Positions 2,953-29,682 of a DNA stretch of 64,000 nucleotides are shown here, one piece after another (position 1 is the stretch's first letter; each line of letters begins with the position of its first letter). A program made the translations under genes and the position numbers. The notes under the pieces were generated by a model. The model was not told where the DNA came from. It did not search any database and saw only the letters and a program-made list of their open reading frames with translations. This stretch comes from Amycolatopsis australiensis. GTDB lineage: Bacteria > Actinomycetota > Actinomycetes > Mycobacteriales > Pseudonocardiaceae. The DNA lies in contig NZ_FPJG01000006.1 in the NCBI RefSeq assembly GCF_900119165.1, positions 310,001 through 374,000 of the forward strand, written 5' to 3'.

Positions 2953-3216
2953 CTACCTGGGCTTTGCCGCGACCGCCTCGGCGATGACCTCGGCGACCCC
3001 GCGGACGTCGACCAGCCGGTCGAGCTCGTCCAGGTCGACCGACACGCCGTAGCGCACCTCGACCCGCGCGAGCAGCTGGACGCGCTGCCGGGACGTCATG
3101 CCGATGTCGTCGAACGGGGTCTCGTCGGTGAGCCGCTCGGGCGGCAGCTGCAGAGCGGTGCAGACGATCTTCCGGATCTCGACGGTGTAGCCGGCCAGGT
3201 CATCCATGGCGCTCAT
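2953..3216 (-). CDS. Acyl carrier protein
   Basis: An 87-aa carrier protein. The attachment site is DIGMTSRQR, where Ser within the G-M-T-S motif would carry the 4'-phosphopantetheine arm (the usual form is G-x-D-S-L). The rest fits the four-helix ACP fold, ending in VRGVAEVIAEAV. It overlaps the end of the acyl-AMP ligase gene by about 17 bp (less if the ATG at 3207 is used), so the two are co-translated. The known partnership is that a FAAL activates a fatty acid as acyl-AMP and loads it onto a stand-alone ACP. Type of acyl chain unknown. Confidence 0.88.
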   Translation of the reverse strand: MSAMDDLAGYTVEIRKIVCTALQLPPERLTDETPFDDIGMTSRQRVQLLARVEVRYGVSVDLDELDRLVDVRGVAEVIAEAVAAKPR

Positions 3217-24233: not shown

Positions 24234-24386
24234 TCTCGACCTACAGCTCTCCCCGTCGCGGTACGGTTCCGCAGGATAGCCGTACGGGGACCGTCTGGTG
24301 TGGGGTTTCTACCAACTCCGGCTAGGGTCGGACACCCCGGGACCCGGCTTCCGGGTACGCAAGCACGAGGGGAAGAGAACGCGCGG

Positions 24387-26342
24387 ATGTCCGTCAGCAC
24401 GCCTCCACGTCCGCCTGGCCCGCCCGGGCCGCCGCCACCCGGCCGCCCGCCGGGCCCGCCGCCGCGGCCGGGCAGACCGGGCGGCGTTCCCGGCGGACCC
24501 GGTGGCGTTCCCGGTGGACCCGGTGGCGTTCCCGGTGGACCCGGTGGTGTGCCGGGTGGACCCGGTGTTGCTCCCGGCGGACCCGGTGGTGTGCCGGGTG
24601 GACCTGGCGGCCCCGGTGGCGTGCCCGGTGGACCTGGCGTGCCCCCGCGTGGGCCTGGCGGTCCTGGTCCGGGCGGGCCTGGCGGCCCCGGCCCTGGCGG
24701 TCCCGGCCCCGGCGTGCCCAGTGGGCCTGGTGGCCCGAGTGGACCCGGCGGCCCCGGTGGTCCCGGCGGGCCTGGTGGTCCCGGCGGGCCTGGTGGACCT
24801 GGCGGCCCCGGACCTGGCGGCCCAAGTGGCCCCGGCGGCCCCGGCCCCGGTGGACCTGGCGGCCCTGGCGGAGGCGGCCCCGGACCTGGCGGCTCCGGCC
24901 CGGGCGGTCCCGGTGGACCTGGCGGTCCCGGCGGCGGTGGTGGTCCTGGCGGCCCCGGCGGCGGCCAAGGCGGACCGGGCGGTCCCGGTGGTGGTGGTCC
25001 CGGCGGGGGCGGGCCTGGTGGACCTGGCGGTCCCGGCCCCGGCGGACCGGGTGGTTCGCCGGGCTCCGACGACAGCGGCCCCGCCGCCGGGTCCGGTGCG
25101 GTGCGGATGGCGCCGCCCGCGCGGCGGCGTTCCTCCGGTGTCAACCTCGGCCCGCTGCCCGTGGCGAACCTCGTCGTGCTCGAGGTCGGCCTGGCCGTCG
25201 GGCTCGTGCTGCTCGCCATCGACATGTCGCTCAAGTGGGTCGGTGTCGGCGTTCTCGGCCTGGCCCTGCTCGTCGCGGTGCTGCGCTGGCGTGGCCGCTG
25301 GTTCACCCAGTGGGTCGGGCTGACGCTGCGGTACTCGTTCCGTTCACACGATCGGGTGGCGAACCCGCTGCCGCCGAGCACCGTCGAGGAGCTCGCCGCC
25401 GAAGAGACCACCGTGACCGGGCCGGAAGACGCGCGCGTCAACCTTCTCCGCATCGCCGTGCCGGACCTCGTGGTCGCGCACGGCGTCGACCACGAACGCC
25501 AGCAGGTCGGGATCGCGTGGAACGACGGCACCTGGACGGCTGTGCTGCTCGTCGAGCCGACGCCGGCGCTGATCACCCAGGCCGGTGGCGCGCCCAGCCT
25601 GCCGCTGTCCGCGCTCGCGCCCTGCCTCGAGGACCGCGGCGTGGTCCTCGACTCGATCCAGATGATCTGGCACTGCTACCCCGGCAGCGCCGCCCTGCCC
25701 GCGGACTCGCCCGCGCTGAGCTCCTACATGGAGGTCCTCGGGCCGCTGCCCGCGGCGGCGCGGCGGACGACGTGGGTCGCGATCCGGCTCGACCCGAAAC
25801 GCTGCCCGGCCGCGATCCGCGAGCGCGGCGGCGGTGTCGTCGGCGCCCACCGCGCGCTCATCGGCGCGCTTTCGCGGGTGCGCAACGCGCTGGAGTCCCA
25901 GGGCGTGCCGACGCGGCCGCTCGACCCGGACGAGCTGCTGCGGGCGAGCATTTCGGCCGCGGAGCTCACCTCCGTCGCCGGCTCCCCGAACAAGGTGACG
26001 TTGCAGGAGCGCTGGTCCGGCGTGACCGCGGCCGGCATCGGGCACGCCAGCTACGCGATCACCGGCTGGCCGAAGGGCAAGATCACCGGCAGCCTGAACG
26101 CGCTGACGAGCGTCCGCGCCCTCTCGGCGACGCTCGCGATGTCGATCTCCCCGGCGGCCGACGAGGGCAAGATCGGGCTGCGCGGCGTCGTCCGGCTGAG
26201 CGCGCGGAACCCGCGTGAGCTCGACGCCGCCGACCAGCGGCTGAAGGGGCTGTCCGAGCGGCTGGGCGTCGACCTGACGCCGCTGCGCGGGCTGCAGGTC
26301 TCCGCGTTCGCGGCGACGCTGCCGATCGGAGGTACGGCATGA
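24387..26342 (+). CDS. eccE: T7SS component EccE with Gly/Pro-rich repetitive N-terminal tail
   Basis: A 651-aa protein. Residues ~4-230 are a low-complexity Pro/Gly tract: an initial Pro-rich part, six or seven copies of the heptad GGVPGGP, then long GGP/GPG runs that are partly collagen-like in triplet form. After a short acidic linker, two membrane helices (LVVLEVGLAVGLVLLAIDM, GVLGLALLVAVLRW) precede an EccE-type domain to the end (VNLLRIAVPDLVVAHG, ITGWPKGKITGSLN). EccE sits at the periphery of the T7SS complex. Start at the ATG at 24387 has GAGGGGAAGAG upstream. ESX-4 of M. tuberculosis lacks eccE, whereas other ESX-4 loci retain it. Confidence 0.9.
   Translation: MSVSTPPRPPGPPGPPPPGRPPGPPPRPGRPGGVPGGPGGVPGGPGGVPGGPGGVPGGPGVAPGGPGGVPGGPGGPGGVPGGPGVPPRGPGGPGPGGPGGPGPGGPGPGVPSGPGGPSGPGGPGGPGGPGGPGGPGGPGGPGPGGPSGPGGPGPGGPGGPGGGGPGPGGSGPGGPGGPGGPGGGGGPGGPGGGQGGPGGPGGGGPGGGGPGGPGGPGPGGPGGSPGSDDSGPAAGSGAVRMAPPARRRSSGVNLGPLPVANLVVLEVGLAVGLVLLAIDMSLKWVGVGVLGLALLVAVLRWRGRWFTQWVGLTLRYSFRSHDRVANPLPPSTVEELAAEETTVTGPEDARVNLLRIAVPDLVVAHGVDHERQQVGIAWNDGTWTAVLLVEPTPALITQAGGAPSLPLSALAPCLEDRGVVLDSIQMIWHCYPGSAALPADSPALSSYMEVLGPLPAAARRTTWVAIRLDPKRCPAAIRERGGGVVGAHRALIGALSRVRNALESQGVPTRPLDPDELLRASISAAELTSVAGSPNKVTLQERWSGVTAAGIGHASYAITGWPKGKITGSLNALTSVRALSATLAMSISPAADEGKIGLRGVVRLSARNPRELDAADQRLKGLSERLGVDLTPLRGLQVSAFAATLPIGGTA
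24483..24638 (+). repeat. 21-bp tandem repeat inside eccE
   Basis: Six contiguous 21-bp units (24483-24608) and a seventh after a 9-bp insert encode GGVPGGP-type heptads. Units 2 and 3 are identical and others differ mainly at third positions. A further ~400 bp of GGN-CCN repeats follows to about 25065. The length is likely variable between strains through slippage. Confidence 0.9.
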
Positions 26343-27071: not shown

Positions 27072-27111
27072 GTGAGTGAGAAACAGGGTCAGCACACTGT
27101 TTCTCACTCAC
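27072..27111. terminator. Bidirectional terminator between the eccE operon and truA
   Basis: A perfect 15-bp inverted repeat (arms 27072-27086 and 27097-27111, 10-nt loop) lies between convergent transcripts. The right arm contains the truA stop codon. The arms include AAACAG/CTGTTT but no long T run, so termination relies on the stem. It can serve both strands. Confidence 0.75.
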
Positions 27112-28012
27112 GAGCGGCCGGGGAAGTGCGGACGTTGCGGGTTTGCTCGGCGCGAGCGGCCAGCTCGGCGTCCGGCGGGTAGTCCACGCCCAGCAGCGTG
27201 AGGCCGTGGGCCGGGGCCACCGCGCTGTCGCGGATGCCGCTCGCCAGCACCTTCGCCGGCCACGCGTCGCTGCGGCGGCCGTCGCCCACCAGGAGCAGCA
27301 CGCCCACCAGGCTGCGGACCATCGAGTGGCAGAACGCGTCCGCCGACACCCGCACCTCCAGCAGGTGCTCGTCCACCCGCTCCCACTCCAGCCGCTGCAG
27401 CTCACGGATCGTCGTGCCCGTGTCACGCTGCTTGCAGTACGCGGCGAAGTCGTGCAGCCCCAGCAGTTCCTCGGCCGCCGCGTTCATCGCGTCCGTCGAC
27501 AGTGGACGGTTCCACGCCAGGGTGTCGTGGCGGCGCAACGGGTCGACACCCCACGGCGCGTCCGACACCCGATAGCGGTAGTGACGGCGGATCGCCGAGA
27601 ACCGGGCGTCGAAGCCCGCCGGCGCGACCCGGGCGCCCAGCACGCGGACGTCGCCCGGCAAGAGGCGGTTCCAGCGGCCCGTCATGCGCGTCAGATCCGG
27701 GATGCCTTCCGGGGAAACGGGAATCCGGCCGGAAGGGGAAGCCAGCGGCACGACGTCGACGTGCACGACCTGCCCGGTCGCGTGCACTCCGGCGTCCGTG
27801 CGGCCCGCCACGACCGCGGACTTGGCCACCGAGGCTCCCGGCGGCTGCCGGTGCAACGCCTCCTCCAGCACGCCCTGGACCGTGCGACGGCCCGGCTGGC
27901 GGGCCCACCCCGAGAAGTCCGTGCCGTCGTAGGAGACGTCCAGGCGCAGACGAACGAGCCCGCCCTCCCCGGTGGGGGTGGCGGGCTCGTCCGGTGTCGA
28001 ATCGGCCGTCAG
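27104..28012 (-). CDS. truA: tRNA pseudouridine synthase A, CTG start
   Basis: Isomerises uridines 38-40 of the tRNA anticodon arm. Conserved parts: LRLDVSYDGTDFSGWARQPGRRTVQG, catalytic Asp in AGRTDAGVH, FDARFSAIRRHYRYRV, and DAFCHSMVRSLVG. The conserved N-terminus reaches back to about nt 27950, but no ATG, GTG or TTG lies in frame between the rplQ stop and the GTG at 27871, which would remove ~47 conserved residues. The best start is CTG at 28012, four bases after rplQ's TGA, with AAGAAGGA 7 nt upstream inside the rplQ 3' end. The result is 302 aa. Co-translation with rplQ is implied. A sequencing error is the alternative. Confidence 0.92.
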   Translation of the reverse strand: MTADSTPDEPATPTGEGGLVRLRLDVSYDGTDFSGWARQPGRRTVQGVLEEALHRQPPGASVAKSAVVAGRTDAGVHATGQVVHVDVVPLASPSGRIPVSPEGIPDLTRMTGRWNRLLPGDVRVLGARVAPAGFDARFSAIRRHYRYRVSDAPWGVDPLRRHDTLAWNRPLSTDAMNAAAEELLGLHDFAAYCKQRDTGTTIRELQRLEWERVDEHLLEVRVSADAFCHSMVRSLVGVLLLVGDGRRSDAWPAKVLASGIRDSAVAPAHGLTLLGVDYPPDAELAARAEQTRNVRTSPAARE

Positions 28013-28015
28013 GAC

Positions 28016-28570
28016 TCAGTCCTTCTTGGCGTCCGCGTCGGTTTCCTCCGAAGCCGGAGCTTCGGTGGTCTCCTCGGCCTTGGCCTCCTCGGCGGCCGGG
28101 GCCTCTTCGGCGGCCGGCGCCTCGGTGGTCTCCTCCGCAGCGGGAGCGGCGGCCTTCGGCTCGTCCTTGGCGAACTTCGTCTTCCGAGCGCGCTCGGCTT
28201 CCGACGTCACCGTCTTCTCGGCCACCAGCTCGATGACGGCCATGGGCGCGTTGTCACCCTTGCGCGGCATCGTCTTGGTGATCCGGGTGTAGCCACCCGC
28301 GCGCTCCGCGAAGTGCGGGCCGATCTCGGCGAACAGCTTGTGCACGACGTCCTTGTCACGGACGACCTTCTGCACCTGACGACGGTTGTGCAGGTCGCCC
28401 CGCTTCGCCTTCGTGATCAGCTTCTCGGCCAGCGGACGGACCCGCTTCGCCTTCGCCTCGGTCGTCGTGATCTTGCCGTGCTCGAACAGCTGCGTGGCCA
28501 AGTTGGCCAGGATCAGCCGCTCGTGCGCGGACGACCCGCCGAGCCGGGCTCCCTTGGTAGGGGTGGGCAT
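28016..28570 (-). CDS. rplQ: Ribosomal protein L17 (bL17)
   Basis: A 184-aa large-subunit protein. The conserved core ([47 protein letters not shown]) covers the first ~125 residues. A C-terminal acidic Ala/Glu/Pro-rich tail of ~55 residues (repeats of [16 protein letters not shown]) extends it, as in several actinomycetes. The last codons carry the ribosome site for truA. It follows rpoA by 41 bp. Confidence 0.98.
28020..28027 (-). promoter_or_regulatory. Shine-Dalgarno for truA within rplQ
   Basis: AAGAAGGA on the minus strand, within the Lys-Lys-Asp codons that end rplQ, lies exactly 7 nt before the CTG at 28012. This placement supports the non-canonical truA start. Confidence 0.65.
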
Positions 28571-28611
28571 TGGTTCTCCTAGTTCAGCTCACAGCGTCCA
28601 GGCACAGGGCC

Positions 28612-29682
28612 TCAGAGCTGCTCGGTCTCTGCGTAGTCCTGGCCATCGTCGTGGCCGTCCGAAATCCCGTCGGCAATGCCGCCCACACCCTCGGACCAGC
28701 CTTCACCGTCGTAGCTGGCGGCAGCCGCGGTCGGGTCGAACCCGGGCGGGCTGTCCTTCAGCGCGAGGCCGAGGCCGACGAGCTTCAGCTTGACCTCGTC
28801 GATCGACTTGGCGCCGAAGTTGCGGATGTCGAGCAGGTCCGCCTCGCTGCGCGAGACCAGCTCGCCCACCGTGTGGATGCCCTCGCGCTTGAGGCAGTTG
28901 TACGACCGGACGGTGAGGTCCAGGTCCTCGATCGGCATCGCGTAGGCGGCGATGGTGTCCGCCTCCTGCGGCGACGGGCCGATCTCGATGCCCTCGGCGT
29001 CGACGTTCAGCTCGCGGGCGAGACCGAACAGCTCCACCAGCGTCTTGCCGGCCGACGCGACGGCGTCGCGCGGCGTGATCGACGGCTTGGTCTCGACGTC
29101 CAGGATCAGCTTGTCGAAGTCGGTGCGCTGCTCGACACGGGTGGCCTCGACCTTGTAGGTCACCTTGAGCACCGGCGAGTAGATCGAGTCGACCGGGATC
29201 CGGCCGATCTCCGCGCCCGCCTGCTTGTTCTGCAGGGCCGGAACGTACCCGCGGCCGCGCTCGACGACGAGCTCGATCTCGAGCTTGCCCTTGCCGTTCA
29301 GCGACGCGATGTGCAGATCCGGGTTGTGCACGGTGACACCCGCCGGCGGCACGATGTCGGCCGCCGTGACCTCACCCGGGCCCTGCTTGCGCAGGTACAT
29401 GGTGACCGGCTCGTCCTCTTCCGAGGACACCACGAGCTCCTTGAGGTTCAGGATGATGTCGGTGACGTCTTCCTTCACCCCGGGAACGGTGGTGAACTCG
29501 TGCAGCACGCCGTCGATGCGGATGCTCGTCACGGCCGCGCCGGGGATGGACGACAGCAGCGTACGACGCAGCGAGTTGCCGAGCGTGTAACCGAAGCCGG
29601 GCTCCAGCGGTTCGATGGTGAACCGGGAGCGGGTCTCGTTGACCGTCTCTTCGCCGAGAGCCGGCCGCTGGGAAATCAGCAT
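28612..29682 (-). CDS. rpoA: RNA polymerase alpha subunit
   Basis: A 356-aa protein. N-terminal assembly domain ([26 protein letters not shown] features absent as expected; [23 protein letters not shown]) and C-terminal DNA/activator-binding domain ([26 protein letters not shown]..., [15 protein letters not shown]) are both complete. The ATG at 29682 is preceded by AAGGAAAACAAGGA. In the alpha operon it lies between rpsD and rplQ. Confidence 0.98.

Follow-up and report, generated by a model that had tools for sequence, protein, structure and literature searches.

Translation of truA, the gene for tRNA pseudouridine(38-40) synthase, very probably begins at a CTG codon (minus strand, 28012-28010) at the end of the upstream gene rplQ, as judged from the sequence by elimination of other starts and by comparison with relatives. 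CTG starts are known in bacteria but rare, and one kept throughout a family in a core gene is new. All positions are those of the window, the whole 64,000-nucleotide stretch that was analyzed, which belongs to a genome of 9.3 Mb. A search of open-access titles and abstract openings, with the terms used, found no work on a truA CTG start or on the rplQ-truA junction.

The gene for ribosomal protein L17 (rplQ, 28016-28570, minus strand) ends with TGA at 28018-28016, leaving a gap of 3 nt before the CTG, and the junction on the minus strand reads GCC AAG AAG GAC TGA GTC CTG ACG GCC GAT. From this TGA the truA frame is open through to its stop at 27104. As the earlier note had stated, no ATG, GTG or TTG is found in this frame after the rplQ stop before the GTG at 27871-27869, 47 codons past the CTG; this GTG is internal to truA and would give a product of 255 aa lacking the conserved SYDGTDFSGW...RTVQ stretch. 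The CTG is the sole NTG among the first truA-frame codons past the rplQ stop, and the Shine-Dalgarno-like sequence AAGAAGGA (28027-28020), inside the end of rplQ, does indeed lie 7 nt before it. The window thus combines a Shine-Dalgarno sequence and an in-frame CTG with the lack of any canonical start able to yield the whole of TruA. Because the rplQ TGA sits in the truA frame, translation of truA should begin shortly past it, and the linker that follows, which is kept in frame, confines the start to the first codons after that stop. A small hairpin was predicted at 28005-28030 (-9.2 kcal/mol for a 28-nt stretch), in which AGGAC of the Shine-Dalgarno sequence pairs with GTCCT across the rplQ TGA, the TGA lying in the loop and the first two bases of the CTG in the stem. 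It was weak or absent in some of the eight loci folded (L262, L270 and L224); it could mask the truA start until a ribosome arrives at the rplQ stop. No promoter was found by a sigma-70 scan of 27700-28700. The L17 protein itself has a long acidic and Ala-rich tail and scored 258.3 bits against NF051448 (L17, sunset domain variant), below the cut-off of 280. Elsewhere in the window, a long open frame on the plus strand (24300-26342) begins with an extended Gly/Pro-rich repeat, and a long frame is open on the opposite strand as well.

The CTG-started product (27104-28012, minus strand) has 302 aa plus the stop. It was matched by the TIGR00071 profile from residue 23 with 152.4 bits (cut-off, 142.85), and a second TruA model, NF000622, gave 99.4 where 308 is required. 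Solved TruA structures (1vs3, 2nqp and 1dj0) align from residue 20 or 21, near nucleotide 27950, which is where the earlier note had placed the limit of the conserved N-terminus. The translation holds the motif AGRTDAGVHA, aligned with 1vs3 (counterpart in 2nqp, AGRTDAGVHG), within which the catalytic Asp lies. The nearest named relatives by TruA, among the matches listed, are Amycolatopsis bullii and A. iheyensis, each with 93% identity.

Relatives were collected by a TruA search of 80 genus genomes (all 80 matched) and 297 family genomes (293 matched), giving 351 distinct genomes. The rplQ-truA junction was read at 234 loci from 233 of these, one genome (G062) contributing two loci. The sample consists of 54 loci from the initial searches, 150 from the matches listed and 30 further family loci picked to span other genera; the first two sets are referred to as the first 204 loci. 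One genus member whose locus lies at a contig edge (G017) and about 117 other family genomes fall outside it. Eighty additional loci from named species partly overlap the 234, and those numbered from L066 on served as an outgroup. Frame and length changes were counted on a FastTree tree, a rough tree that makes these counts approximate.

The putative truA start was CTG in 217 of the 234 loci, GTG in 10, TTG in three, ATC in three and none in one. The in-frame CTG lies between -1 and +7 of the rplQ stop in all 217, and some in-frame start was present between -1 and +13 in 233 of 234. Among the first 204 loci, CTG was located at -1 in 132, at +7 in 46, at +6 in 13 and at +5 in two, the remainder carrying GTG at -1 (five), TTG at +3 (three) or ATC at +6 (three). 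The 30 more distant loci had CTG at -1 (23), GTG at -1 (four), CTG at +6 (one) and GTG at +13 (L300), with none near the stop in L290. The start overlaps the rplQ stop by 4 nt in 164 of 234 loci, as CTGA in 155 and, in nine with GTG precisely at -1, as GTGA. Of 233 family loci, 202 have a Shine-Dalgarno-like core ahead of the start. The relatives show no clear ATG elsewhere, and 16 of the 17 loci without CTG have GTG, TTG or ATC at or near its site. Two members of the window's genus (L168 and L170) have TAA TTG in place of the CTG pattern, and in L247 a frame change is accompanied by TGA TTG, so that these three frame-shifted loci carry TTG directly after the rplQ stop. In three loci of genus g43 (L262, L263 and L265) the rplQ stop is in the truA frame, no in-frame ATG, GTG, TTG or CTG was found close to it, and ATC stands where relatives have CTG; an ATC start is possible there on sequence grounds.

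The CTG is also kept where rplQ stops before it. Among the loci read, 58 of the window's genus have rplQ ending AAGAAGGAC TGA upstream, and every one of them keeps GTCCTG unchanged, the linker columns after it being variable; family-wide, 65 loci have rplQ ending GAC TGA, with CTG in 62 and ATC in three. A sequencing error hiding an ATG or GTG, which the earlier note had named as a way in which its reading could fail, is rejected because independent genomes agree on CTG. No ATG, GTG or TTG occurs between the CTG and the core Tyr in 122 of the 217 CTG loci, and none before the hairpin position described below in 178 of 217. The other 95 of 217 hold some such codon between the CTG and the TruA core, which counts against the CTG start. 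The CTG start proposed in the earlier note is thus upheld by comparison; the family-wide spread, the usual CTGA overlap of 4 nt and the hairpin in the first codons are features that it did not contain.

The linker between start and hairpin behaves as a translated sequence. In the first 204 loci, which hold 143 distinct linkers, 0 stops were present in 1071 codons in frame, and the other two frames of the same linkers had 19 and 40 stops in 928 codons each. Every TGA stop places an NTG codon at -1, and the telling point is therefore whether truA keeps to the -1 frame. With rplQ ending TCC TGA and truA in any frame (148 loci), truA remained in the -1 frame in 146, while the distance from stop to core, for which 17 different values were found, underwent 42 or more changes; only two changes of frame were counted (L247 and L290). 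By contrast, the same distance in Streptomyces (22 loci fetched and 20 read, L110 and L113 being unreadable) was spread over the three frames (8, 6 and 6), and 14 of the 20 loci had an in-frame stop between the rplQ stop and the TruA core. A related test, multiples-of-three lengths within the overlap group (46 changes), was circular in part, the frame being what defines that group, and the test on the 148 loci took its place. Against translation of the linker, the peptide itself is nearly free to evolve, with 128, 111 and 152 changes at the three codon positions (81-nt group) and synonymous shares of 40/98, 34/96 and 10/85 in frames 0, 1 and 2. Codon-position constraint, a weak signal, was dropped as support for linker translation.

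A strong terminator-like hairpin, GAGCCCGCC...GGCGGGCTC (27956-27988, minus strand), lies inside truA codons 9-19, at the same place before the core in 210 of 234 loci, and is directly followed by the codons GTT CGT (27950-27955), a conserved U-richer tail, so that hairpin and tail together overprint codons 9-21. The outer nine pairs are formed in 124 to 128 of the 128 distinct sequences from these 210 loci, and three of them have changed on both sides (G-C to A-T and C-G to T-A); the register of the inner stem varies, and two of its pairs form in only 69 and 87 of 128. The 42-nt hairpin stretch of the window folds at -34.6 kcal/mol versus -19.5 (sd 3.8) for 1000 synonymous recodings, none of which was so low, and in a sample of every sixth locus (39 loci) z had a median of -4.0, with values from -5.2 to 1.3. 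In the first 204 loci, the Val codon after the hairpin was GTT in 165 of 185 cases versus 75 of 1769 elsewhere, and the Arg codon was CGT in 160 of 204 versus 185 of 1872. The conserved hairpin, together with GTT CGT kept against codon usage, argues for an RNA or DNA signal written into the first codons of truA, and the overprinted hairpin would be a clear example of such a signal shaping a coding sequence. The signal is probably a terminator or attenuator after the ribosomal protein operon. The stem is GC-rich, as in intrinsic terminators, and the tail GTTCGTCT has 4 T in 8 with its T-ending codons strongly kept against codon usage; the site went unreported in a terminator scan that requires 5 T in 8. 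Attenuation in particular is conceivable, if somewhat doubtful.

It was also considered whether a weak start codon is itself selected. In the 164 overlap loci the T and G of the CTG are dictated by rplQ, since its TGA makes the -1 codon NTG, and the C is the third base of the last rplQ codon. TCG or TCA at that codon would make GTG or ATG in the overlap form and leave L17 unaltered, and yet in all 148 loci where the last codon is Ser it is TCC, with 0 changes. A control Ser (in VTSEA), read in 40 of the 148 loci, was TCC in 17, TCG in 14, AGC in seven and TCT in two, with at least 10 changes, and the other Ser codons of rplQ in the 164 overlap loci were TCG 506 times, TCC 334, AGC 227 and others 58. 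The idea that TCC before TGA is unusual in itself was tempered by a control from the window's own genome. In a 436.8 kb sample, C was the commonest base before TGA (127 of 226 predicted TGA-ended genes), and Ser before TGA was TCC in seven, TCG in four, TCA in two and TCT in one. Because C before TGA is common and the UCC can pair with GGA of the Shine-Dalgarno sequence in the small hairpin of the window, the codon record suggests, and does not show, selection for a weak truA start. In the same sample, 96 neighbouring pairs have a TGA stop and the next gene is open in the -1 frame in 22; the -1 codon was GTG in 11, CTG in six and ATG in five, and the gene caller, which accepts canonical starts only, gave all 22 genes such a start. 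One contig of this genome (C1, 72.8 kb) carries a repeat, since the same gene-junction sequence occurs at minus-strand positions 3079 and 65718, near its opposite ends.

Three other readings of the junction were weighed. Translation might start only after the hairpin, at GTT 27955 or CTG 27949, on the model of actinobacteria whose TruA begins near V/M-R-L-R-L-D; the upstream frame would then be incidental. Most of the Streptomyces relatives read have in-frame stops after rplQ and an in-frame GTG nearer the core, TruA homology begins only at residues 20-23, the linker peptide is weakly constrained, GGGGAGGG precedes the site, and ATG or GTG stands 24 nt before the core Tyr in five of the 30 distant loci (L288, L292, L294, L312 and L314). 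The SD-like stretch GGGGAGGG, however, would be locked within the hairpin. Moreover, among the first 204 loci 185 have GTT or GTC as the codon at -24 and none has ATG, GTG or TTG there, and the codon at -18 is varied (CTG in 128, GTG in 18, GTT in 13, TAC in eight, and others). An untranslated linker, finally, would neither go through 42 or more changes in length with just two in frame nor be stop-free in frame 0 alone, and a start beyond the hairpin is accordingly regarded as improbable.

Conservation of the CTG might instead be a by-product of the TCC TGA end of rplQ, or of a small Shine-Dalgarno-masking hairpin that needs the UCC, with the true start elsewhere nearby (GTC or ACG) or varying. 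Two of the three bases of the CTG or GTG do belong to the rplQ TGA in 164 of 234 loci, and the pairing of UCC and the frequency of C before TGA noted above fit such an origin. It would account for the kept C and not for where translation begins; it also sits poorly with the unchanged CTG of the 58 genus loci where rplQ stops earlier and with the 16 of 17 non-CTG loci that have GTG, TTG or ATC there or close by. We consider it very unlikely. An L17-TruA fusion, produced through read-through of the stop or through frameshifting so that truA would need no start of its own, is suggested by the shared frame of the two genes in the window, where only TGA GTC precedes the CTG. The distance from rplQ stop to core Tyr, modulo 3, is 2 in 166 loci, 1 in 47 and 0 in 21 of the 234, and because the frame relation differs in this way between relatives no single recoding event fits all loci; the fusion, which is scarcely credible, was rejected.

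Given a CTG start, termination-reinitiation is likely to be the main route to truA translation. Such coupling requires overlaps or very short gaps, distances of -4 and -1 nt being far more frequent than any others (PMC10666635), and the window has a very short gap of 3 nt. A ribosome that has completed L17 would halt at the TGA (28018-28016), which in most relatives overlaps the start as CTGA. The terminated ribosome would be held by AAGAAGGA at the end of rplQ and would restart on the nearby CTG with fMet-tRNA, after which it would traverse the strong hairpin in codons 9-19. Because CTG is a poor initiator, TruA output would be a low fraction of that of L17 and would come mostly from ribosomes arriving via rplQ. 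In PMC11497404, initiation complexes on CUG are described as having a lower stability than complexes on AUG, GUG and UUG. Among Shine-Dalgarno-led starts in Mycobacterium smegmatis reporters, PMC4633059 gives CTG as 0.03%, not enriched and nearly inert as a free start, versus ATG 20.5%, GTG 22.2%, TTG 28.7% and ATT 9.8%, so that CTG should initiate poorly in a related group, a point against the CTG start of truA. A paper on reinitiation at non-canonical codons (PMC4648390) deals with eukaryotic translation and was unused as support.

A bolder proposal is that selection keeps the CTG as a start reserved for reinitiation, one that is too weak to serve free ribosomes and usable after L17 release on an overlapping or adjacent UGA, and that the hairpin acts as an attenuator unless a ribosome trails the polymerase, so that translation of L17 would set TruA at two levels. 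This is put forward tentatively, as a rather unlikely whole. If true, the choice of start codon at truA would encode coupling, not just a weak start, and near-cognate starts could be common where stop and start overlap, with annotation overlooking them. The usual gene finders for bacteria search for ATG, GTG and TTG. The family-wide CTG start of TruA suggests either a looser start rule for reinitiating ribosomes or that weak initiation is wanted, and either reading would alter start annotation at overlapping genes.

The arrangement also occurs outside the family. Of 296 class genomes scanned for a pattern (GAGTCCTGA followed by GAGCCCG), 24 matched, the window's own genome included. The truA region was then retrieved from 13 of the remaining 23 matches and from 11 non-matches; the pattern was located at truA in seven of the 13 and elsewhere in six. 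Nineteen of 25 class loci were readable (not L339, L342, L344 and L356-L358), the rplQ end of L355 being doubtful. CTG at -1 in the truA frame was observed in 10 of the 19, five picked by the pattern (L334, L335, L346, L350 and L354) and five not (L337, L343, L349, L351 and L352), and the other nine had GTG, later or unclear starts. In L349, from another family, CTG at -1 is followed by 14 codons to the TruA core with no canonical start between. This locus has little room for the long hairpin.

Several known systems resemble parts of this junction. The ATGA and GTGA pairs that operate by termination-reinitiation are like rplQ-truA in the 4-nt overlap (164 of 234 loci; the window has a 3-nt gap) and in a Shine-Dalgarno sequence within the end of the upstream gene. 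Unlike those pairs (PMC10666635), the overlapped start is CTG in 155 of the 164 loci (GTG in nine), and for truA the coupling is deduced from the arrangement. Isolated bacterial CTG starts share the CUG initiator; AUG-to-CUG switches are very rare, two among 61,358 ancestral AUG starts being given in PMC5622118, and, unlike these isolated switches, the truA CTG is kept across the family and occurs in others. The hairpin is akin to translation-sensitive intrinsic terminators and attenuators in joining a strong stem to a U-enriched tail between a ribosomal protein gene and the next core, but it differs in having only 4 T in 8 in the tail and in lying within coding sequence. Conserved near-cognate starts (AUU and others) are familiar from infC and similar genes, and to our knowledge TruA has no link to IF3 autoregulation. 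The truA CTG is like the infC-type starts in being a near-cognate codon kept over a large clade, and unlike them in being tied to an upstream stop codon.
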